A program made the position numbers and the translations under genes. A stretch of 64,000 nucleotides of DNA. Origin: Tribonema minus (Eukaryota; Sar; Xanthophyceae; Tribonematales; Tribonemataceae). Positions 12,334-41,900 of the stretch are shown piece after piece. The stretch is taken from contig JAFCMP010000020.1 of assembly GCA_017506865.1 (NCBI GenBank), positions 1 to 64,000 on the forward strand. The letters run 5' to 3'. The notes under the pieces are model-generated. The model saw only the letters and a program-made list of their open reading frames with translations, did no database searches and had not been told where the DNA came from. How positions within the stretch are numbered: position 1 is the first letter of the stretch; each line of letters begins with the position of its first letter.

Positions 12334-15033
12334 AGCGCAGCGCCGCGCACCTCGACAGCGCGCTCCGCCTCGTCGTCGCCGTCGCTCTCGTCGGACGACG
12401 AGCCGCCGTCGACGCCGCACTCGCGGTCCGTGCGCGGCGACGGCGCGTCCACGTCGTAGCCATCGTAGCTCTCGCGGTCCTGGCCCGTGCGCCCCGCCGC
12501 CGCCGTCGCGCACGACGCGTCCGACGCGATGCGCACGTGCCCCGGCTTTGCCGCTTTCGGCGCCGCCGCCGCCGCTGCTGCCTTAGGCGATGCCGCCGCT
12601 GCCACCGCCGCCTTAGGCGATGCCGCTGCCGCCGCTGCCGACTTGGGCGATGCCGCCGCTGCCGGCGGCGGCGGCGACGGCGGCTGCGGCGGCGGCGACG
12701 GCGACAGCTGCGCGCGCCGCATGTCGGAGACGCGCGCCTGGATCTCGCGCTTCTTGCGCTCGAGCGCGTCGCTCGTGTACGTCGGGCTCGACGGCCGCGG
12801 CGGCAGCACCGGCGCCTGCTCCGTCGGCGGCGACGGCAGCGGCCGCGCGGCGGCGGCGGCGGCGGCGGCGGCGCGCGGCGATGCAGCCGCGGCGGCACCT
12901 GGCGACAGCGGCGGCGGCGTTGGCAGCGGGTACACCGCCGACTGGTACGCGGCGGACGGCCGTGCGGGGGCGGCGGCAGCGGCGGCGGCGGCGGTGGCGT
13001 TCGTGTGCTGCGTGTTGGTCGCCGCGTGCGTGGCGGCGAGGTCGAAGGGCCGCGGCGGCGACGCGCTGCGCACCGCGGCGCCGAACGGGCTCTGCTGCAC
13101 TGCTGCTGCCGTCGCTGCCGCCGCCTGCGCCCCCGCCGCCTTGTCGGCTGCTGCCGCACTCTGCGTGCGACATTGCGGACGATTATTGGTCAGGGGTAGT
13201 GTCCCTGCGGAGTGGCTCACAACCGCCGCTGTATCGCCTGCATGGCAATCACCAAAGCAGGTGTGCACTTCACGGTGCGTCATGGAGAGCGGCGCGTTCC
13301 ATGCTGAGGCGGATTCATCGACTTCATGTTTGAAGTAGAGCTCATCTGCGAGTGGTTGTTCACACAGTGCTGCAGGCGCACCACAAAACCACAACAAAAA
13401 CACAAGGCTGTACCCTCCCCTGCCACAACTAAGACTGCGGCTCAGCCAGCTTTCACAATGGGCATGAAGGCCAACGCTGGCGTGAATGAGCCCACATTCA
13501 CCCCAGTCCTCACCCTAACCCTAACCCTAATCCCGCAAAGTCCTTCAAAACACATTGGTAACGCAGCTCGCCATGATGACACAGCGCTGCTGGCCTTGAG
13601 GTCAGGGTTAGGGTTAGGGTTAGGGTTAGGGCTGGGTTAGGGCTGCGCTGCGCAAACGGCAGCAGCCCGCAATACGACAACTCGCGCACAAAGGCACAGC
13701 TTTGTACATACCATAAAACGCTTCTGAGGCATACATATGGCAAACGCGTCGACAGCACTAGCGTCCAATTGCTCACCTCGTGGGCGTCGTCGCGCGCAGG
13801 CGACTTGCCGCGGCTGGGGCTGCGGCTGTGCGCTGCCGCCGCCGCAGCAGCGGCGGTGGGCTCCCTGCCGGGGCTTCCCGCATCCACTTTCGACTTACTA
13901 GGAGATGCAGCAGCGAGCATCCTCGAGGGAGAGCGCCCTCTGCCGTCGACAGGCGACTTGGGCTTCGCCGCCTCCACCGCCGCCGCCGCCGCCGCGGCCG
14001 CCTTGGCGTTGGTGCGTGCGGCGAGCGCTGCCACGGTGCCGTCGTCGATGGCCTGACGCACGGAGTTGAAGTTTTAAGGAAGTGGCGTGTGCTGCGTTGA
14101 AGTGATGAAGAAGTGTGTGGACTTGAGGTGTGTGCGACAGAGCAGCTGTACACCACCTCTGTAGACATGTTGAGAGGGATCTCGGGTCGCCTGTTGCCTG
14201 TGCGGGCGTGTTTGCGGAAGTTAAAGTTCTGCGCGCGTGGCGATAGCTGCTGCGGATCTACCTAGCAGGCGCCTCTGTACATGTCGATTGCGCCGGTTGA
14301 AGATACACGTGTCAAGAAAACGTCCAACAGTGGACCAATTTGCATCCGGCGCATCAAACGAGGAACTGATCTGCGCCGTACGCCAAGTGGTGGCGGTGAC
14401 TAGTGTAGTCTAGATTTTCTGCAAAGAGACCTGTTGCTGTGCGTATTTGTTCAATGCAGGCAGTGTGCTCGACGACAGCGAGTGAACGTGCTTCAGGTGT
14501 GCGGGCGTACTTGGAACCGACAACCCCATCGGCTGTAGCTTCCTGAATTAAAGTTGCGAAGGCTTTGGCGTGCTTGCGGCAACACGATCTTCTGTGATTT
14601 CTGCTGCTGTCGGCAGCTGTTGGCATGAGCGATGCGGCGCACAAGACCGCCGAAGCAGGATCAAGTCATGGCACGAATGCCTCGAGTGTGGGTTAGGCTG
14701 CCATAGAGAATGAGTGCGATGACGGCAATATGCCTATAGAAAACCTCGACGGCGCCTTCAGCGACACACCGCGATGGCGTCATGCACGGCTTGTGAGAGG
14801 CAAAATGTGACCTCTCGCAGAAACGAGTACTCCAGGGCACCGGCTCTTCGCGTCACCTGCTGCAGCTTCGACGCCAGCGTAGACCTGGTCCCAGCGGTAG
14901 GTAGATTGAGAGCCCTGAGCACCCGCCTAAGCTGCAGCACCGACATGTTGGGAGGGTCAAGATGTTCCAGCTCCGACGCCGGCACACTCACTGTCGCGCA
15001 GGGCATGATGCCGCTCCCTGCTGAAAAACTCAT
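11488..15033 (-). CDS. INCENP: INCENP-like chromosomal passenger protein with SAP motif (four exons, 3' end missing)
   Basis: The minus-strand exons are 15033-14857, 14052-13777, 13160-12351 and 11742-11488, all joined in phase 0 with GT-AG introns. Exon 1 starts MSFSAGSGIM and has a SAP-type motif (NMSVLQLRRVLRALNLP, then TRSTLASKL), normally DNA-binding. The middle is Ala/Pro/Ser-rich with RSPSRGKSPAR-type basic repeats and a short charged helix (DALERKKREIQARVSDMRR). The last exon has an acidic run and then IPAWARGKQLEAALERQF, PINPDTIF and DLQHIFDTRKK, the hallmark of the INCENP IN-box that binds and activates Aurora kinase. Family members end shortly after this with a basic, Ser-rich tail; that exon (after the donor AAAAAG/GTATGT) was not located. 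A further open segment in intron 1 (14354-14644) may be an extra exon. The role is inferred as the scaffold of the chromosomal passenger complex in mitosis. Confidence 0.75.
13513..13642. repeat. Facing telomere-like blocks (CCCTAA then TTAGGG) in an intron
   Basis: 13513-13534 is CCCTAACCCTAACCCTAA plus TCCC; 13604-13631 is four and a half TTAGGG units, with another unit to 13642. The blocks are inverted about 70 bp apart inside an INCENP-like intron, so the single strand could form a hairpin. Confidence 0.9.
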
Positions 15034-16040: not shown

Positions 16041-19043
<3,003 letters not shown>

Positions 19044-26211: not shown

Positions 26212-29200
26212 GCTGCTGCGGATGCCATGGCTAGTCCTGGTTCTGACACAGCATGCATGGAAAGCGCTCTCAGCGCACCAAACACTTTCTGCTGGCAGCG
26301 ACAAGGGTTTGAGCATTCACATGCTCGAGAGCACACTTCTGGAATCCAACAGTACCAGCGATGGACATTTCGAGGAGTGGCCTGTGTACCACGCCACAGA
26401 TCACACTGGCAAGGTACCAGCTGCTTCGACTTGTCTCGTATTTTATTATAATCATGGACCGTGAGTCAAGTGGACCGTGAGTCAAGTGATGCCTGTCAAA
26501 GCACTCTCGACTAGTCAGTACTGACTTCGCTGGCAGGCGCGATCCTCACTTCCAATAGAGATCATCTCGCACAGGTTGTCACCATCATCTTTTTGCTGGA
26601 ATATGCGCCGAGCTGCCGTTTTTTCTTCTATGATAAACAGCGGCACCCTCCTGAAAAGCAGGACGCAATGCGCTGTCTCTCTCACCACCGTCGACGGGTG
26701 GTTGGTACCACTCCAACAACTACAGAAGCACTTGATCGCCGGCAGTGTCGTCAACAAAACGACCAGAGCCTGCAAACGCCAATTCGGCACGATGGCAACC
26801 GATAGTTGCTCCTGTCACGAATTTCTGTGCAGCAGCTGACGTCACACTCCATCGTTCCATCGACTGGCCGCCTTCGTGATGCCGAGGCATCAGGAACACG
26901 AATGCAGGGTGATGGCGCCGCCGGGGAGCGCTGCTGCGGCGCGGCAGCGAGCAGCGGCCAAAGCGCGGCAGCCCGTCAGCATGAGCGCGGACGCGGAGGC
27001 AGCTCGGAGCACTGACGTGGAGGCAGTTCTGGCGCCGCTCAGGGGCCTGTGCGCCACGAAGGAGGTGACGCTCAAGGTACAGTACGGAACTGTACAGCAC
27101 GGTACAGTGGTGCGCGGCGCTTGGCAAATGTGTGTGTGCAGGGCTCGTCGTCGTCACATGCGTGCCGCTCGGCACTGCAGTCGACAGATGCATGCATTGT
27201 AGGCTTGTTAGTTGGCGCTTGGAAAGACGTTGCCGGCAACTGCCGACAGCGTGCATTCATGATGTGTGAGCACGTGGCAGCAATGCGAGCGATGCGCGCT
27301 GACTCACTCGGCAATGCTCATGCAGGCATGGCTCATTGTCCAGCTGCCAGTGCGCCCGCATGCACAGCACTCGGAAAGGTGCTGCTGTGAGACAAGCGCT
27401 GCAAGGGCGCAGTCACGTGGCGGTGTCACCGCCGAGTGAGGTTCGATCGTGTCTACGTCTCCACAGAGCCATTGTGACCGAAGCGGCGCTGGCGTCACGG
27501 TGCCACGGCGCAGCCTCGGTGCGCGTGTGCGCCGCATCTTGTGCGAGCGTTCCCCTGCTGACACAGCCAGGCCCTGGCCCAGCACACCATCACTCTGGAA
27601 CTGCCCTGTACCTCAAACGTGCACTGCGCTGCAGTCCCGGTGTCGGCACCGGCAGATTTTGTCGCGCAAGCGCGCTGCGAGCGCAGCCGACTTCGTCCGT
27701 GATGCATGTTTTGGTGATGCACCGCTGCAACGCCCCGGCCGGCACTGCGCAACGAATACTCTCATCGTCCCGCTACAGGCACGTATAGTACACGACGCGC
27801 TGCGCGTCTGCGGCTCCGAGATGCACGTCTCGGCGACGGACCGCCGCAATGCCCTACATAGTGGGCACTGCGCGACGATCACTCATTATCCAACTACAAG
27901 CACGTATAGCATACAACGCGCTGCGCCTGTTGCCCCCCGATCGCGCGCGCGCAGTCCGCCTTCTGGACGTTCGAGTACTGCGTCCACGGCAGCGTGCGCC
28001 AGCACCGTACGTACGCGCAGCGCAGCGACGACCGCAGCCTCGGCACATTCGTGAGGGCAGAGCTGGCGCCGGCAGAGGGCATGGACATCGGGACGCAACC
28101 GCAGACGGCGGCGAAGGGGGGGATAGCGAGGGGCAGTGTCAGCACTAGCGCAGGGGGGGGGGCGAGGGGGGGGGGCGGCGCCGAGGCGGCGCCGGCGATA
28201 CTGGAGCGCTTCGAGGGGGGGGACGTGTCGGAGGAGAGTGGCAGAGCCAGGAACACCACCGTGGTGAGCGGGCCTGTCATCTACAATAAAATGCTTTACG
28301 AGTGGAATTATTACTTGCCAAAGGCGAACGAAGAAAGCTGCAGGTTGCACGCGTTGCGTGTTGTGCGTCGGTCGTGAGGAGCACGCGCTGTTTCACAGTT
28401 GAAGTTTTGTCACAGTTGAAGTTGAAGTGCGGCTTGCGCGCATGCCTAGCTGGAAGGTTGTGTCGCCCGGCGCCAGAACGCGGGCCGCACTGAATCAATG
28501 CGCGTGCAGCGACACTTGCGGCGCGCGTGAAGAGCCGGACGTCGTCGCATACGCACCGCTCATGTGAGCACGGTCACTGAGCACTGTCACTGAGCGCGTG
28601 CGGCAGGTAGCACCCCGACTGTTGAAGAGCGACCCAGGCCCTCAACGCAGCGTGTCACAACGCAGTTGCCGTGTCAACGCTGCTCGAAGGGTGTCTGTAC
28701 TTGCCTACCTCATGTGCATGCCATTATCTGTAACGCCCCTCCTGCGTCGGTGCTCACATGCCAGGCCTCTATGTTTTGGGGGCAGGGGCTTGCATTGGTG
28801 GAGCACGAACGCCGCGACCACGTCGCCGCTGACGCCGGCGCGCTCGTCAGCGACCCGCGCGAGCACTCGCTGGCTTGAAGTTGACATTGAAGTTGAAGTT
28901 GGAGCCGTCCCGTTCCATCACAGTCTCCCCACCGTGCCCCCTCTGTGAACAGCGCATGCGCGCGTCGACCGCAATGGCCACAGGCTCTTCAACCCCACCT
29001 TATGAACACTACGTACCCTGCTAATATGGCAGCTAACCACACCTTGTCATTCGTCACCTACTAAGATCTCCATGACCTTTTGAATCGTTTCCATTGCTAA
29101 TATGCCGCATTTGATTGCGGCCGCGCATGCGCCAGTTCCTGAGGTGCTGCGGCAGCGCGCGCGTGGTGGGCGCGCCGGCGCTGAGCCTGGCGCGCGCGCG

Positions 29201-32200
29201 CGAGCCGCGCGACGGCGAGTTTGAGCTGGAGGCGTGCGCGCCCGCCATGTGCGACGTGCTGCCGGGGCCCACCGCCATCGACCTGCTGGAGAAAGCGTGA
29301 GTCGGTGTTGTGGGCACGCGGCAACCCTTTACTTCAAACAGTAAATGCAGGTCGCGGTGCATCTTTTGTTTCAAGCACGTGTTGCGATGCTACAACCCTT
29401 CACCCAAAACATTCAGGTGCAGTGCAGCTTTTTTCAGAGCATGTGTGCAACGTGCTGCCGGGGCCCACTGCCAACAACCTGCTGGAGAGAGCGTGAGTCG
29501 GTGTTGTGGGCACGCGGCAACCCTTTACTTCAAACAGTAAATGCAGGTCGCAGTGCATCTTTTCTTAAGCATGCATGCGACGCCACAACCCTTTACTTCA
29601 AAGCATTTAGATCGCGGCGAATTTGATGTCGAGCATGTGTGCGATGTGCTGCCGGAGCCCGCCGCCATCAACCTGCTGGAGAGAGCGTGAGTCGGTCTCT
29701 TGCGTGCACGCGTGCGCATGTGCTCGGTTCGGACCACGAACCGTGAACCATCGAAATTGTTCACAGGCATTCACAAGAGGGTGAGTCGACACGCCGCTGT
29801 ACTGTCGAAACGTTCAGATCGCGGCGAATGTGTTCTGAAGCGTGTTTGTGATGAGCTGCCGGGGCCCACTGCCATCAATCCGCTGGAGAGAGAGCGTGAG
29901 TCGGCGTCATTTGTGGATGCGTGCTTGCGCATGCGTGGGCTGGGAGTAGGCGCCATGCCGGCGCTGCCCGCCGGCGCCCCGCCTTTCAGCATTAGGGTTG
30001 AGGTCAGGGGTCGGTGTTGCGGCGGGCCATGCAGCAGTATCTGATGATGCGCCTTGCATGGTGCATGGCAGCTGGGCACAAACACACTGACTGGCACACC
30101 GTTATTGCTGGTGCTGCGCGCAAAGCGCTGCTGCGTGACGCCGGTTCCGAATGGAGAGTCACACGCCAACGTTTTCTGAAGACTTCAAATGCGTATGGCA
30201 GTCGGGGAGTGCTACGGACACAGATCCTCCAACTCGCGGTGCCACCTGGCATGGGAATTGATTGAGATGTCAGACGGGCGCACTGTCGACGCCGGTGGGT
30301 GATCTGATAATCAGCTGGAGACGCAGTGCTCAACGTACACTGTTGCTGCTGATCGTGATTTGATAAACGAGCCGCAATCGCGATGCTCAACGTGCTCTGT
30401 CGCCGCTGATCAGTGATCTTCAATAACCGAGCCGCAATCGCGTTGCTCGACGTGCACCGTTGCCGCTGATCTGAAATCGGCCTCGCTTGCATCGCTCGAT
30501 ACGTGCAGCATGCGCAAGGGGGGGGTGGGGGGCGAGGGGCGCTGCATGGCAGCGCTCAGCTACATCTGGTGGACATACAAGTTCTGCTACGACAAGGGCA
30601 TACAGCAGCTGCACCTGACGGAGCCCAGGGCTGACGGCATCCTGCACGTCTACACGGTGCGTAACAGTTGACGTGCGGGGGTCACGGTGATGCGCCGCGG
30701 TTGAGAGGCAAGAGAAGCAATCGCTGCTTCCGCGTTGTGATTGAGGTGCGCTGTGTGCAGGGGGCCTGTGAGGGGGTGTAGGAGTCGAGGACGATGCAGC
30801 GTGCCACGTGGTTGCCAGTGCAACATTGAAGTTGCGAACTGCAAAAGGGACGCGCTGTCCGCCTGTCGTGTCGCAGCGCTTCGGACTGTGCATGCAGCAT
30901 GTCATTGAATGCGCTTTCCGCAGGGATGTATCCGCAACGACAGGGCGCTCATCGATGCACCCGTCACGTGCCCTCACACCTTGCGACACAGGTAGATATA
31001 GAGCACTGGCTGGGCAGATACAGCGCGGCATTCGGCCGCACCCGCAAATGAGCAGTTGGCAATTGCAGATGCAACCGCCACCCTAACTCCAGCGACACAC
31101 ACATACTTCCTGTCATGCTTCTCTAAACTGTGTGAACATAAACTTCCCGTCATGCATCTCCACATCATGTGCGCAGGTGGAGACTGAGTACTGGCTGGGC
31201 AGGTACAGCGCAGCGCTCGGCCGTACCACAGACGACGACCTCATTGTGGAGCAGCCAGATGGCAGGCCCAGCGTCCTGCAGGTACTTCAAGTATGACTTC
31301 AAGTATGAGCGCTGCTGCTGACTGAACTGTTGAGCGCTGCTGCCGCTGCCGACCTCATTATGGAGCAGTCAGATGGCAGGTCGAGTGTTCTTCAGGTACT
31401 TCTAGGTGTGAGCGCTGCCAATGAATCGTTGTGCTCAAGAGTTGCTGATGGAAGTAGATGGCCCGCAAAATACTGTTGAACGAGGGCCTAGTCTGAAGGT
31501 TGTATTGATCACTACACAAAGCAGCTGCATGTCACGAGCGCCTGCTGTCAAACAGGATTTATACAATGGGCCGGCCGTAGATGATGCCCTCAAGTACTGC
31601 AGACACCACGCATGTGCGCAAGGCCTGGTGGTTGTGTCTCATGTGTGATTCATGGCATGTGAATATACAGAGTGAGTGCAAAGAGTGAGAATGTGAGCTT
31701 GTGGAAGCGGTCGTAGCACTTTCGTTGTTGTGCAGGTGCCGCTGCTGCCAATGCTGATCTCTACAGTAGTTACCGTGCAAAATACAGCTGGCATGGCTCA
31801 CACTGTGCCGTGTCATGACTGCGGCTGTGGTGCGGCGCGTCGCCGCAACGCGCGCGAGCGCTGTCATTGCGTTGGCGTTACGCAGGCACTCCGTCCCCCC
31901 CTCAACCACAGCCCAACCGTTGCAGCATCAGCCTATTGTCTGAGCTAAGCCTGGTGGGGGTCAGCATGATGGGTTAGGATGCTGTCACCGTTTGCGGGCA
32001 TTTGCAGGCCCAACACATCATGCAGCGGGCCGTGAGCTTGCGCCACTATTGCAACTTGCAATCTAGGGCTACAGGGATATGTTTGAGGGTTAAGGGTTTT
32101 GGGTTAGAGTCAGGTGTATTTGTCGTTGCCATGCCAGACCGGCCAAATTAAAGCTAGCATGCTACACCAACGAACTGATCATCATCATACACGCGCCCCT

Positions 32201-34190
32201 TTGCCAATGCACTTCAGCACCACAGCACTGGAAGCGCCACGTGGCATTAGGGTTAGCATTAGGGTTAGGGTCCGGGCCTACAACGACTTTGGCATGACAG
32301 GGGCGCAAAAGATGTCAATCGGGGACATGCACAATGGCTCCCTTGTGCCGTTTCCTGCGCGCCCTAAGCCTGATCCTGACCCTAACCCTGACCCTAGCCC
32401 TAATGCTAACCCTCCGCGCCGCGGCACTGCGGTCGAGCGGCTACCATAGCGCGTCAGCTTCTCCTCGATACCGTTCACGGCTGCGGATGAGTGTGCATTG
32501 CCGCTGCGTGTTGTGCCCGTCCAATGGAGCAGCTTCACCGACTAAGTAGCGTCTATCGCGTCAACCGCCACAGACCGGTCGTGACAGCACAAACACCATT
32601 CCTGAGCACTGTTGATCTATCCCCCACTCCTACTCCCCCCCCCCCCCCCCTTCCTTCCTGTGTTTTCCCACCGCAGCTCGAGTATGAGGGCGGCACCCCC
32701 TGCGACTCCACCGCGGGGGGGGCGGAGGAGGGGGACCACGTACGGGGGCAGCTGCGGTCGAGCACGGTGCAGTTTGTTTGCGGCGACACCGAGGCGCTGC
32801 GCAGTGTGGCCGAGGACCATACGTGCCACTATCAAGTGGTCGTCACGAGGTGAGGTTGACACTCCAAGAGTTGAAGTTTGTGGTTCAGGTGAAGTTGAAG
32901 TTGGTGCTTCAAGTAGAGTAGTGACGCGGAGGCGCTGCGTAGCGCTGTTGAGGATCACACATGCCACTACCAGGTGGTGGTGACGAGGTGAGGTTGACGC
33001 TCCAATAGTTGAAGTATGTGCTTCTAGGCGAAGTAGCGACGCGGAGGCGCTGCGCAGCGTGGCCAAGGACCACACGTGCCACTACCAGGTGGTCCACTCT
33101 CCAAGAGTTAAGTATGTGCTTGTGAAGAAGTGACGCGGAGGCGCTGCGCAGCGTGGCCAAATCACACGTGCCACTACCAGGTGGTGGCAAGGTGAGGTTG
33201 ACGCTCCAAGAGTTGAAGTCTGTGGTTGGAGGTGAAGTGGCGGCGAAGTGGAGGCGCTGCGCAGCGTGGCCAAGGACCGCACGTGTAACCCGTAAGGTGC
33301 CGTCTCACCAGTTCAACTTGCATTTGATATGCTCACCTCACTGGACATTTAGCGCTTGTGCACTACGGTCTCTCACCTGCAACTGCCTCTCCGCTCTGCC
33401 CCTGCCGCTGCGTTGCAGTCCCAAGTTGTGCCAGCACCCGGCGCTAGCGCAGGCCAAGCCCGTTGTCTACGAAGTCCGCTGCCTGCCGACGCAACAGTGG
33501 GCTGCCGCAATGACCAGCAGCAGCGGCAGCAGCGGCAGCGGCAGCGGCAGCGGTAGCGGCAGCAGCAGCAGCGGCGGCGGCAGTAGCAGCAGCGGCGGCG
33601 GCAGTAGCAGCAGCGGCAGCGGCAGCACCAAGCCGGCAGCACTGGACAAGGGCACGGCCGCATCTGCAGTGCATGCCAGCAGCAGCAGCCCCGGCGGCGG
33701 CGGCAGCGTGAAAGCGTCAATGAACAAGGAAGCAGCCGCAGATGCAGTGCACGACCGTGGCAGCAGCAGCGGCAGCAGCAGTGACAGTAGCAAAAGCGGT
33801 GGCAGTGGCAGCAGCAAAGCAGCACCAAAGGCGAAGGAGGCAGCAAAGCCTGCAGTAAACGATGGCGGCAGCGGCAGCAGCACTGGCGGCAGTGGCAGCA
33901 CCGGCAGCAGTAGTAGCAGCAAGCCAGCATCGAAGAAGAAGAAGACTAAGGCAGCACCTGCGGTTCATGATGGCGGCGGCAGCGGCAGCAGCAGCAGCGG
34001 CGGCAGCAGCAGCAGCAGTAGCGGAAAGGCATCAACCACTGGCAGTGGCAGCGGCAGCAGCGGAAAGGCAACAACAACCGGCAGCAGCAGCAGCGGTGGC
34101 GGCAGCACCAGCAGCGGCGGCGGCAGCAGCGGCAAGGCAGCAACAAAACGCAAGAAGGCGGCGACAACTGCAGCGCGTGCTCGCTTATAG
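26201..34190 (+). CDS. OS-9/erlectin-like ER lectin (MRH domains), multi-exon
   Basis: Likely exons: 26201-26413 (signal peptide MVVVLLRMPWLVLVL), an unresolved part, about 26900-27076 (VEAVLAPLRGLC), 27955-about 28261 (FWTFEYCVHGSVRQH), about 28786-28877, 29136-29296 (FLRCCGSARV, FELEACAPAMC), 30509-30656 (IWWTYKFCYDKGIQQLH), 31177-31281 (TEYWLGRYSAALG), 32677-32849 (LEYEGGTPCDS, TVQFVCGD, TCHYQVVV) and about 33416-34190 (PKLCQHPAL). The later exons join with matching phases. WWTYxFC...QxH, YxGGxxC, VxFxCG and CxYxxVVxxPxLC are MRH signatures of OS-9/Yos9/erlectin, which read trimmed N-glycans on misfolded glycoproteins for ERAD. Two WTxE blocks suggest a two-MRH, erlectin-type layout. The last 200 residues are a Ser/Gly tract with short Lys/Ala-rich segments and no HDEL-like end. 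Exons 2-4 are uncertain. Confidence 0.7.
27640..27950. repeat. About 117-bp tandem repeat just upstream of an ER lectin exon
   Basis: CACTGCGC(A/G)ACGA, then CTC(A)T...CACGTATAG.A and ACGCGCTGCGC recur at about 27749 and 27866, with a more diverged copy to the left. The array ends at the acceptor of the 27955 exon. Confidence 0.7.
29248..29905 (+). repeat. Four tandem copies of an exon end with its GTGAGT donor (ER lectin)
   Basis: The exon end TGCCGGGGCCCAC.GCCATC, then CTGGAGA(A/G)AGC and the donor GTGAGTCGG occurs at about 29248-29305, 29445-29501, 29636-29693 and 29844-29900. The first three are about 195 bp apart and the last about 210 bp. Copies 2-4 lie in the intron after the true exon end at 29296. 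Copy 2 is preceded by TTTTTTCAG, so 29438-29492 could be read as a 55-nt cassette exon, which would shift the frame. Confidence 0.85.
30300..30508 (+). repeat. Tandem repeat ending at a splice acceptor (ER lectin)
   Basis: Units of about 50-60 bp with GC(A/G)(A/T)(T/C)GCTC(A/G)A(C/T), near 30323, 30379, 30440 and 30489. The last is the acceptor of the 30509 exon (ATACGTGCAG). Three earlier units also contain CGCTGATC or GCTGATC. Confidence 0.75.
30992..31052 (+). pseudogene. Decayed upstream copy of the 5' end of the 31177 exon
   Basis: CACAG/GTAGATATAGAGCACTGG, then CTGGGCAGATACAGCGCGGC, parallels the true acceptor and exon start at 31177 (offset 185 bp). The copy ends in a stop (CGCAAATGA). 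Confidence 0.85.
31350..31402 (+). pseudogene. Downstream copy of the 3' end and donor of the 31177-31281 exon
   Basis: GACCTCATTATGGAGCAGTC, then AGATGGCAGG and TTCTTCAG/GTACTTC, parallels the exon end at 31281 at an offset of 114 bp. The GTAC donor context is kept. Confidence 0.88.
32249..32413. repeat. Inverted telomere-like blocks sharing a 16-mer (ER lectin intron)
   Basis: AGGGTTAGCATTAGGG at 32249-32264 is exactly the reverse complement of 32398-32413. Each arm has further TTAGGG/CCCTAA-like units around it. The order here (TTAGGG left, CCCTAA right) is opposite to the pair at 13.5 kb. Confidence 0.9.
32850..33300 (+). repeat. Tandem copies of the 3' end and donor of the 32677-32849 exon
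   Basis: GCGGAGGCGCTGCGCAGC, then GTGGCCAAGGA, CACGTGCCACTACCAGGTGG and a GTGAGGTTGA donor region recur four times after the true exon end at 32849, at spacings of about 95-140 bp. Donor-like GTGAGG is retained after 32987 and 33191; other copies have lost it. Confidence 0.88.
33513..34140 (+). repeat. Imperfect (AGC/GGC)n tract coding Ser/Gly
   Basis: Interrupted triplet tract inside the last exon of the ER lectin gene. Lys/Ala-rich segments such as ASKKKKTKAAPAVHD divide it into similar blocks (AVHD occurs repeatedly), suggesting internal duplication. Confidence 0.85.
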
Positions 34191-38351: not shown

Positions 38352-38954
38352 GGTGCTTGATCAGGATGTCTGTGAAATTTCTTGTTGCTGTTGTTGGAGG
38401 TGTAGCAGGGAATGAGTGCCCTCAGTCCTGCATGCGTAGAAGGAGGCATCGCCTGTCCGCCGATCGCCGCAGCAGGGCCGGTGAGAATATCACCGGCCAC
38501 CAGGCATCGCTACCGCCTCGAGCCCTCAGGCCGAGCAAATAAGCGCGTAGTGAGGCCGGTTTATTCCTGACGTCGCACGTACGTACGTACGGCGGTGCGC
38601 AACTTGAACTTGAACTTCACCTTGCTGGAAATTGATCGCTTTGTGCGCAGGAAGTGATTCTTTGACAACTTTAGCAACTCATTGCCATAGCACAGTACAC
38701 AGGCACGGCCGATTCGTGCCAAGACAAAGAAGCAGCTGCTCACACGCCTCAAAGTAGTACCTACTTAGCCGCCAACGCGTGCGACGGCTCAGTGTTGAAT
38801 GTCCTCAAGAAGAGCAACGCGGCACGCACACAGAAAACGAGCGTGCGGTCACACCACGCACCCATGCAAACATCACAACAACGCCGCCTCAGACATCACC
38901 ACCACGTTGAGTACGTACACTTCTACATTGCTGCGCGCGCACACGGAAACGACG

Positions 38955-41900
38955 TCAAACCCCCTTCCCCCCCCCCGGGCCCTTTCTCCGCCCCCCCGCC
39001 TTGCGCGCGATGCCCGTGTCCGCAATGTGCGCCTCCCACAGCGCCGCGATGCGGTCCGCTTCACGCTTCTCTTCGGCGGGCGTCTGGGGCACGCGCCCGC
39101 CCTCGCTCCAGCCCCCCCCCTCAGCCGCGCCTTCTTCCTCCTCTTCGCCGTCAGCTTCGTCGCTGTCTTCGTCGTCCTCCGAGTCGTAGTCGAGGTGGTT
39201 CACCCAGTCCTTGGGGTTGTAAGGCTTGATGTTCTCCCACCGCGCCTCGAGATTCAGCTCCTGCAGCGGCGGCGGATGTGCGTGCGGGGAGTGAGGGTGT
39301 AGTCAGTGCTACTAGTCACTACACACCGGCGTGTGCACTAAGGATTCAAGTACCTGCCCCCTCTGATTTGAGTCAGCACATGAGCATATGAGCTTCAAAG
39401 TATGCAAATATACTTTCAAGTACTTCAAGTTGAAGTACTTCAAGTAGAAGTACTTGAGGTACGAGCAGAGTCAAATGTCTGCAAAGCATGATCACGCTGC
39501 CGGCATCAGCAGTGGTCCCAGGGTGAGCGTTTTGGCCATCCACCCTCCTCACTGGACCGAGAGCGTACAAGACTTCACGCACGTCGGCAAACACCAGTGC
39601 TCAACAGCGGTCTTTCTGTTGACACCATCAGCCGCAAACGCCATGGCCAGGACTCCTCGACGATGCAGCCGCTACAGCTACAGGCTCTTCACCTGAGTGA
39701 AAACCTTTGAGCCATGCAGCCTTCATCATACCCCTCCCTCCCCGGCCCTAACCCTAGCTGCCTACAACAACCCTCGCGACACTTTCTTTGGGTTCGCACC
39801 CCTAAATCCCCAGCTCACCCTAACCCCAGCTGCCTTCAATGCGCACCACAATGTATTTGGGCTTCGGACCTTTACACTCATGCCCCACCCTAACCCTAGC
39901 TGCCAGCAACAAACCTCGCAATACTACTTGGCTTCAAACCGCCAAGTCCCTACCGCGCCCTAACCCTCACCCTAACCCTACATGGCGCCCCCCAACGCAC
40001 CTTGCGATACTTGGCTTCGAACACGTGTACAATCAGATTCCAGCAGTCCACGATCATCCAGTCGTCGCAGTCGTAGCCCTCCGCGCCGGTGATGCCCGGC
40101 GCGTGCGACAGCTTCCGCCGCTTCAGCGCGTACGTGATGACATCGCTCAGCCGCTGCAGCGAGGGGGGATGCAGGGGGGAAGGGGGGGGGGGGCGTTGTC
40201 TGTGCAGATGCGCAGGGTACAGATACGGGACACAGTGAAGTGCGCAGTTCAGCGCAGTACAGAGTGCCTGGGACACTGCGCATGGCATCAGCGCGCGCAT
40301 GTATGGCGTCGAGCGCTTTCTAGTGCTTCACAGCGCCCAGAAGGCATATTGCGTGCAGGGTATGCAGGTGCTGGTCTACTGCAAGTACTTGAAGTACGTA
40401 ATTTGTCTCATGCGCTTCTGGAGTGGCGACACTGGGATCAGCGCTCAGGCGATCGTCACTACCGCAATCACGCTCACAACGTGCATACGCAAGTTGATGG
40501 CGATGCGGCGCGATTTAGTGATCCCATCGGTGTCGTTCACCCATCAATGAAACTGTTTTACGTGCGTGCGGCTCTGTAGTCCGTGCACAAGCACTGGATG
40601 CAGGTGCAGTGGTATAGCTGACAGACACAGCACGATGACAGCTGTGATGCAGTGCAGAGGCGCTGAGCCACTTCTTGACCCTAATCCTAACCCTAACCCT
40701 TCACGGGCCATTCGTGCATTGAACTATGTGGCTCACGTGGCTCAGCTATGCCGCACTTCAACTTTGTGAGAACCCTGACAGAGCGTGCGCTGTGCAACCT
40801 CAACGCGCCCAGCGACTAGAAGTCCAGGTGTGTGGCCTACAGCTCCATGTGTCACTGTACCGCCAATCCGCGCACCATGCGTCCCCGTGAAAGTGAGACA
40901 GCACGCAACAGTAGACAACAGCGATAGACAGCAGGCGCCTCGCCCGCACGCGCACCCTCACCTGCATGTGCCGCATGCTCCTGCCCGTGCAGAAGATCAT
41001 GGCGTCCGCCAGGTCGCTCTTCCCCGCAAGGTGCACCACCCTGATGTCCGTCCCGCCATTGTTCTCCAGCGCCGTCACCACCTCCCCCACCGTCAGAGGC
41101 ACTCTGCAGAGTGAAGTGCGTGCAGGTGGGCAGCGGCGGGGGGGTTGAGGGAGGGTCAGCATAGAGCTCTGCAATCTTTTGATTCGTTTTCTTCAGTGTG
41201 TGTGTGTGGGGGGGGGCGGGGGCAGCATTCAGTACGTGCGCTAGACATGCCTGGTGATTTCCAAAGGGATCAGGTTGTGAATGGCATGCTGTAAAACGTT
41301 GCAGTGGCGCGTACGGAGCGGCGCACGAGGGCGCACCGGCGGCAGCTAACCCTAGCCCTAGCGCCAAGCAAGTAAAGGCATGCGACTGTGGAGAAATATC
41401 TGGGGGTACGGGAACGCGCAGCAGCTGTGGTGCTGCGCTGCGCAGCTGCTGCGCTGCGCTGACATGCATCAAGGGACGCTGCAGCCGATGGACTTGATTG
41501 AAAGACTGTGGTCGTCTGTGCTGGTGCAATATGCTCAAAGCATGTTGCTCTGGTGGTGCACCTCTGTCTGGGCACATCAAAGATGACTTTGCAGTCACGC
41601 AGAGAAAGCTGCCCGGTGCTGCGGCTAAAGAAAAGGGTGGCCATCGTGGAATGCAGGCAAGACTTTGAGCAGAAAACGTGAATCAAAACGTTTAGCGTTG
41701 GCGAGCTTGATGTTGGCAGTGGCAGAGGCACTGGTAATGAGTGGGCAATGTGGCTACATGTGCTGGGGGACAGCGGCCTGAGGGGTTGCCTCACGTAGCT
41801 GGTGGTTTGTATTGCACAGTAGATCTTACATACCACCCACAACCAAACTCAAGTTCATGACCAGTCAACTCATCGACAGCAGATGCCAGCAGCATGACGA

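Follow-up and report, generated by a model that had tools for sequence, protein, structure and literature searches.

The window, by which we mean the whole 64,000-nucleotide stretch of Tribonema minus DNA under analysis, is part of a 158-Mb genome in 554 contigs. The predicted gene at 29136-34190, on the forward strand, is by its protein matches that of an MRH-domain ER lectin of the OS-9/ERLEC1 type: the best PDB match of the product is Endoplasmic reticulum lectin 1 (E = 1.4e-13), and the Pfam models PRKCSH and PRKCSH_1 both score above cut-off. A small gene finder trained on the fetched DNA, to which the lectin exons were not supplied, placed exons at 29127-29296, 30509-30656, 31177-31281, 32677-32849 and 33453-34190, and also called an exon at 33037-33088 that is false, being an intronic copy. 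The first exon was initially annotated as 29136-29296, while the gene finder starts at the ATG at 29127. Exon 30509-30656 carries the MRH domain, with the motif WWTYKFCYDK, and exon 32677-32849 its second half (both supported by Pfam and the gene finder); exon 31177-31281, which has half-copies on either side, is supported by the gene finder and by alignment. For the last exon we used 33419-34190 in the protein, with an acceptor chosen by eye at 33419. From 33491 to 34190 this exon encodes a long Ser/Gly low-complexity tail, derived from GCAGCG-type repeats.

Exon ends, together with splice site and adjoining intron, had been described as repeated in tandem at five places in this gene, and this holds at four of them, all on the forward strand. 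At donor 29296, the duplicated unit comprises the last 49 bp of the exon and about 147 bp of intron. The original is followed by three further copies: 29444-29610 (exon end, donor and intron start, 150/166 identical to 29248-29416), 29638-29712 (65/73 identical) and 29847-29921 (59/71 identical), with GAGAGC/gtgagt intact in all three (the slash marks the border). Upstream of exon 31177, a single copy at 30960-31042 repeats the intron end, the acceptor and the first 51 bp of the exon (62/82 identical, ACACAG/ intact). Downstream of the same exon, a single copy at 31350-31434 repeats its last 46 bp, the donor gtactt of 31281 and the intron start (72/85 identical, CTTCAG/gtactt intact). Donor 32849 has four further copies in 32923-33320 (32923-33034, 33036-33131, 33132-33238 and 33240-33320), the exon part being the last 65-67 bp of 32677-32849; /gtgagg is intact in two of them, one has no aligned base at the site, and the last reads CACCAG/ttcaac. 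The copy numbers and the retention of GTGAG or GTAC donors in several copies (three at 29296, one at 31281, two at 32849) are thus as first reported. At the fifth place, acceptor 30509, alignment of the exon edge to the adjoining intron gave no junction-spanning copy; the tandem array there, at 30280-30471, is made of intron only and ends about 30-38 bp before the exon. It is true that the copies point outward from the junction, but trivially so for any duplication across it, because, by definition, the functional copy is whichever one adjoins the remainder of the exon.

The lectin copies are only 76-91% identical, that is 9-24% diverged, and the arrays are therefore not assembly stutter. The introns in which they sit have outer splice sites that agree with the conserved domain, so that no additional intron is needed for this gene.

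Introner-like elements make introns larger or give rise to new ones, and they bring splice sites with them. The arrays likewise enlarge introns and carry splice sites, and mobile elements of that kind inserted at splice sites could have been their source. Three lectin queries, one exon and two copies, were run against the genome, and among the matches listed they found their own locus only: for the first copy of donor 32849 this was the 32923-33320 array, and for 31350-31434 that place alone. Near-identical introns dispersed at many loci, as introner elements would leave, were thus not seen with these three queries among the matches listed. In addition, the units contain the local exon end. 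Insertion of such elements seems to us extremely improbable.

We analysed 350 kb in all: 160 kb contiguous with the window, and one 10-kb piece from each of 19 other contigs, 19 pieces in total. Local tandem duplications (at most 800 bp apart, at least 65% identity) formed 90 clusters in this sample, some of them in coding repeats, and were present in 18 of the 20 sequences; of the 19 samples taken on other contigs, 17 had them. The lectin gene is therefore one case among many, in a sample that covers 0.2% of the genome and of which 160 kb adjoins the window. What had been presented as a property of one gene is widespread in these 350 kb; one of the five places in that gene does not span a junction. 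The shortest periods of the clusters had quartiles of 129, 157 and 202 bp, with 73 of the 90 between 100 and 250 bp, and unit length ran from about 103 to 368 bp (5th to 95th percentile).

Every junction predicted with confidence was tested by aligning up to 150 bp of its exon and 25 bp of its intron to the adjoining intron. Nine predicted exons were left out beforehand, either because they were copies themselves (at most 120 bp long, with 60% aligning to a longer exon no more than 1500 bp away) or because the gene to which they belonged was doubtful. Two of the nine come from an all-repeat gene (C20 gene 11), whose remaining two exons scored under the cut-off. By the strict count, 41 of 328 junctions were spanned (21 of 158 donors, 20 of 170 acceptors). 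A looser set of 48 includes seven more whose alignments reach only 0-5 bp into the intron. When junctions were aligned to introns of other junctions as decoys, a spanning match was found in 1 of 918; among relaxed junctions, 4 of 75 had an array. Nearly half of the clusters (43/90) touch a spanned junction, and at least one spanned junction was found in 19 of 50 genes. The units studied straddle predicted donors or acceptors.

Arrays reach eight further copies; the median distance from the original to the first copy is 153.5 bp. Six of 15 junctions were spanned in an EH-domain gene, and 5 of 9 tested junctions had exon-edge arrays in a SET-domain gene (C20 139318-145195, loci L029 and L030). 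The latter gene has the highest spanned share among the listed genes with more than three tested junctions, and it carries an array on its stop-codon side too, with an exon part of 58 bp. In a protein-kinase gene (L015, 2344-2749), exon end and intron start are repeated seven times, with 42-59 bp from copy to copy; none of the other events in the set of 48 keeps so short a spacing over more than two copies. Within the window, a donor-edge copy of exon 16793-16955 of another gene lies at 16622-16742 on the reverse strand; its exon part is 67 bp, and the GT is lost in the copy.

Junctions and gene models in this study were predicted with the gene finder trained here, and neighbouring genes are probably fused in some of the models, as with UPF0029 and PIG-H. 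The pattern might then be an artefact of gene prediction, or of assembly through repeat stutter. However, the divergence of the lectin copies is unlike stutter, the clusters recur on most of the other contigs sampled, and eleven array-bearing genes match known families, namely the lectin gene and ten others supported by Pfam, the ten having been picked for their arrays. We regard an artefact as very improbable.

Exon-edge arrays were present in 33 of 136 introns and made up 10.1% of intron bases. Introns with an array were longer than those without (median 1237 bp, n = 33, versus 720 bp, n = 103; p = 0.006). This fits the earlier suggestion that such duplications make introns grow, but long introns may simply collect more arrays.

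Decay of the copies was followed at 48 junctions, for a total of 127 copies. Exon parts were about 85-86% identical and intron parts about 79-81%. Mismatches between copy and exon amounted to 11.8% (234/1990), 11.2% (223/1993) and 20.0% (395/1974) at the three codon positions. Such figures are expected if the copy drifts freely, by about 0.115 per site, and the exon accumulates changes chiefly at third positions; they would not be expected of a translated copy. As judged from the alignments, the copies thus look neutral and the exon copy constrained, and the proposal that duplications are tolerated where one copy can be spliced out fits well.

Could the copies instead be functional, kept by selection as alternative donors, acceptors or exon ends? 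The splice dinucleotide, GT or AG, is intact in 96 of 115 copies. Flanking identity predicts 0.73, which this exceeds (p about 0.005-0.007); codon positions 1 and 2 predict 0.78, from which it does not differ significantly (p 0.11). A slight excess of intact dinucleotides is possible, and alignments favouring matches near the site could cause it. Several exon copies are open in frame, the gene finder called some of them exons, and net indels are multiples of three in 62 of 113 copies, including copies with none. Yet no coding constraint was seen in the copies, since mismatches at codon positions 1 and 2 are at the level of free sequence. The kinase domain matches better without the copies (180 bits versus 162.3 with them). 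For the EH domain, scores were equivalent (48.3 bits without the copy, 48.2 with it), but the domain was matched whole, over residues 9-82, only when the copy was left out; with the copy in place the match was confined to 52-100. Of six EF-hand models, four scored higher when the copies were kept (for instance 70.5 versus 63.5 bits) and two scored lower, a comparison that is confounded because the EF-hand sequence is itself repeated. The sequences thus give no good sign that the copies are used; the generation of alternative splice choices, which the initial annotation had also proposed, has no good support, and we consider selection for function improbable.

The same annotation had called for a comparison of junctions with intron interiors, and in the 350-kb sample its outcome was positive. 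In intron interiors, 158 of 3618 point-orientations had a copy on one side only, and 32 of 1809 points had copies on both sides. The ratio of junctions to interiors was 2.86 (bootstrap by gene, 2.13-3.84). Easier detection alone gave a ratio of 1.28-1.29 in a simulation that combined uniform duplications of 90-250 bp with neutral copies and an exon held frozen; junctions are therefore about twofold over-represented. Point coverage, taken before clean-up and inflated by spurious copy-exons, was 6.9% in intron interiors, 6.1% in exon interiors and 2.7% in intergenic DNA. Coverage within exons came mostly from coding repeats, as far as looked at. As it is not low, purging of duplications within exons is an assumption of what follows. 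Coding ends other than splice sites served as a control, small in number: 2 of 45 had an array, one of them with an exon part of 58 bp.

The exon part of the unit had a median of 62.5 bp (quartiles 51 and 71, sd 22) and the intron part a median of 91 bp (sd 63). In the strict set, 23 of 41 exon parts fell in 50-69 bp, versus 15-17% expected from a simulation with detection built in; among those of 20-99 bp, the count was 23 of 40, versus 25-28% expected. This 50-69 bp window was picked after the data had been seen. In the looser set of 48, exon parts numbered 11 at 20-49 bp, 24 at 50-69 bp, 10 at 70-99 bp and 3 at 100 bp or more. One of the 48 is a whole exon (L007 3967, 105/105 bp). Detection bias was simulated as a cause of the 50-70 bp peak and was insufficient. 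The evidence for an upper limit is strong: exon parts of at least 100 bp made up 1 of 41 events in the strict set and 3 of 48 in the looser one, for an expectation of 37-39% (p about 1e-7). The shortage of exon parts below 50 bp is weaker; in the strict set, parts of 20-49 bp were rarer than those of 50-69 bp (9 versus 23, p 0.003-0.006), and a KS test on the whole shape between 20 and 99 bp gave p 0.005-0.017. If real, this lower-side shortage calls for a mutational cause. Recognition of longer exon copies as exons, if it occurs, would set an upper limit near 70-90 bp. Only a loose parallel is offered by the 94% of mammalian coding exons that exceed 51 nt according to an excerpt of PMC4317164.

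These figures bear on our main rival explanation, in which duplication is physically tied to junctions, with one breakpoint 50-70 bp inside the exon and the other variable in the intron. The exon breakpoint might be set, for instance, by a nucleosome or a co-transcriptional RNA-DNA structure at the exon edge. Such a process would account for the narrow exon part beside a far more variable intron part, for the concentration of exon parts in 50-69 bp, and for the enrichment above the simulated ratio. It also agrees with the independence of the exon part from exon length over 82-1000 bp (Spearman 0.14, p 0.36, n = 48), and with the four single-copy events having the least diverged exon parts (96-98% identical), at 51, 53, 57 and 64 bp. 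On the other hand, inspection by eye of the breakpoints listed brought out no motif, units of similar kind occur in intron interiors, and arrays occur at two of the coding ends that are not splice sites. The peak itself could partly reflect a selective upper cut-off combined with sampling noise, the p value on the lower side being no better than given above. We hold this explanation to be rather unlikely. Its bolder form, in which splice junctions are mutational hot spots with a breakpoint 50-70 bp into the exon on both sides of the intron and at any exon length, and a ratchet anchored at the junction lengthens introns, is in our opinion doubtful to the same degree.

The explanation that we prefer, at a probability of roughly 0.6, is neutral tandem duplication that occurs genome-wide and is tolerated at exon edges. 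The genome would often duplicate segments in tandem, mostly of 100-250 bp. Where a splice site falls within such a segment, the copy that adjoins the remaining exon would go on working, and the remaining copies, with their duplicate splice site and exon fragment, would lie inside the intron and be spliced out. Exon-edge duplications would survive because the outermost copy remains the exon end; being near-neutral, they would persist, multiply within the intron and decay. Duplications within exons would be purged, and copies with some 70-100 bp of exon or more would be rare, probably as they are recognised as exons. A ratchet may add to persistence: if a diverged intronic copy were deleted by recombining with the exon copy, its mutations would end up in the exon. 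Such deletions would be selected against while interior arrays shrink freely, which may explain the twofold excess. Neutral tolerance alone does not fully explain the data, for it predicts about 1.28-fold junction coverage instead of 2.86-fold, and no lack of short exon parts. The twofold enrichment and the 50-70 bp exon breakpoint thus leave room for a splice-site-linked process such as the initial annotation had put forward, although neutral tolerance is preferred.

Several known systems resemble these arrays in part. Excerpts of PMC4974935 and PMC3443670, in which Hellsten 2011 and Gao and Lynch 2009 are cited, treat tandem duplication as a source of new introns, and PMC4974935 describes a potato RdRp case in which an intron-exon border is duplicated. 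The common feature is a short tandem duplication carrying splice signals. As presented in these excerpts, however, the outcome is a new intron (through an exonic AGGT segment in the classic model, through inserted exonic sequence in potato), whereas in T. minus an intron already in place grows by up to eight further copies, the protein showing no sign of change, and this at 41 of 328 sampled junctions. Internal gene duplications are commonly observed in eukaryotes (Gao and Lynch 2009, as quoted in an excerpt of PMC4974935). Rogers and Bendich 2025 (PMC11782384, in part) report direct repeats that likewise lie near intron borders, those of 6-30 bp being commoner than chance. These repeats are of 4-30 bp, with a mean of 11.4 bp, and are read as insertion-site duplications, unlike the steps of some 150 bp found here. 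Minisatellites and internal tandem repeats in genes, as outlined in an excerpt of PMC2812944, also consist of head-to-tail copies able to alter gene structure, and our arrays are head-to-tail as in minisatellites or VNTRs; they differ in their long units and in that close to half of the clusters touch a spanned junction. Duplicated, mutually exclusive exons repeat a whole exon with both splice sites and keep coding constraint in the copies, whereas here exon edges are copied, and they diverge at codon positions 1 and 2 as free sequence does. Tandem arrays of exon edges were not found in the open-licence PMC literature among the matches listed.

The lengthening of introns is usually ascribed to transposons and random insertion. 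Exon-edge arrays offer a way for introns to grow that can be seen and dated, and the protein seems to be spared. The 96 copies with an intact dinucleotide also provide near-intact decoy splice sites, for asking how the spliceosome chooses among near-identical neighbours. A fixed exon-side breakpoint, if it held across the genome, would argue for a mutation process that senses the location of splice sites.

Some other features of this DNA were recorded. Interstitial telomere-like CCCTAA/TTAGGG runs lie at 13508-13645, 32244-32413, 39958-39980 and 40678-40700 of the window. Such runs are strongly over-represented in non-coding DNA, TAACCCTAA occurring 77 times in the 270 kb counted versus about 0.2 expected. 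Runs of AACTTCAAC / TTGAAGTT are found in non-coding DNA at 28414-28428, 28875-28901 and 38601-38624, also near the lectin arrays; AACTTCAAC occurs 71 times versus 1.4 expected. Composition had at first pointed to a green alga as the host. Two light-harvesting proteins (L032 and L033), however, match antenna chains named ACPI, CAC and FCP. For one of them, the top matches are five long multi-domain LHCI chains of 9vfj, with antenna chains below, and for the other FCP-D and Fcpb5. We take these names to denote chlorophyll a/c antennae of red-type plastids, and the host is therefore probably an alga with such a plastid.
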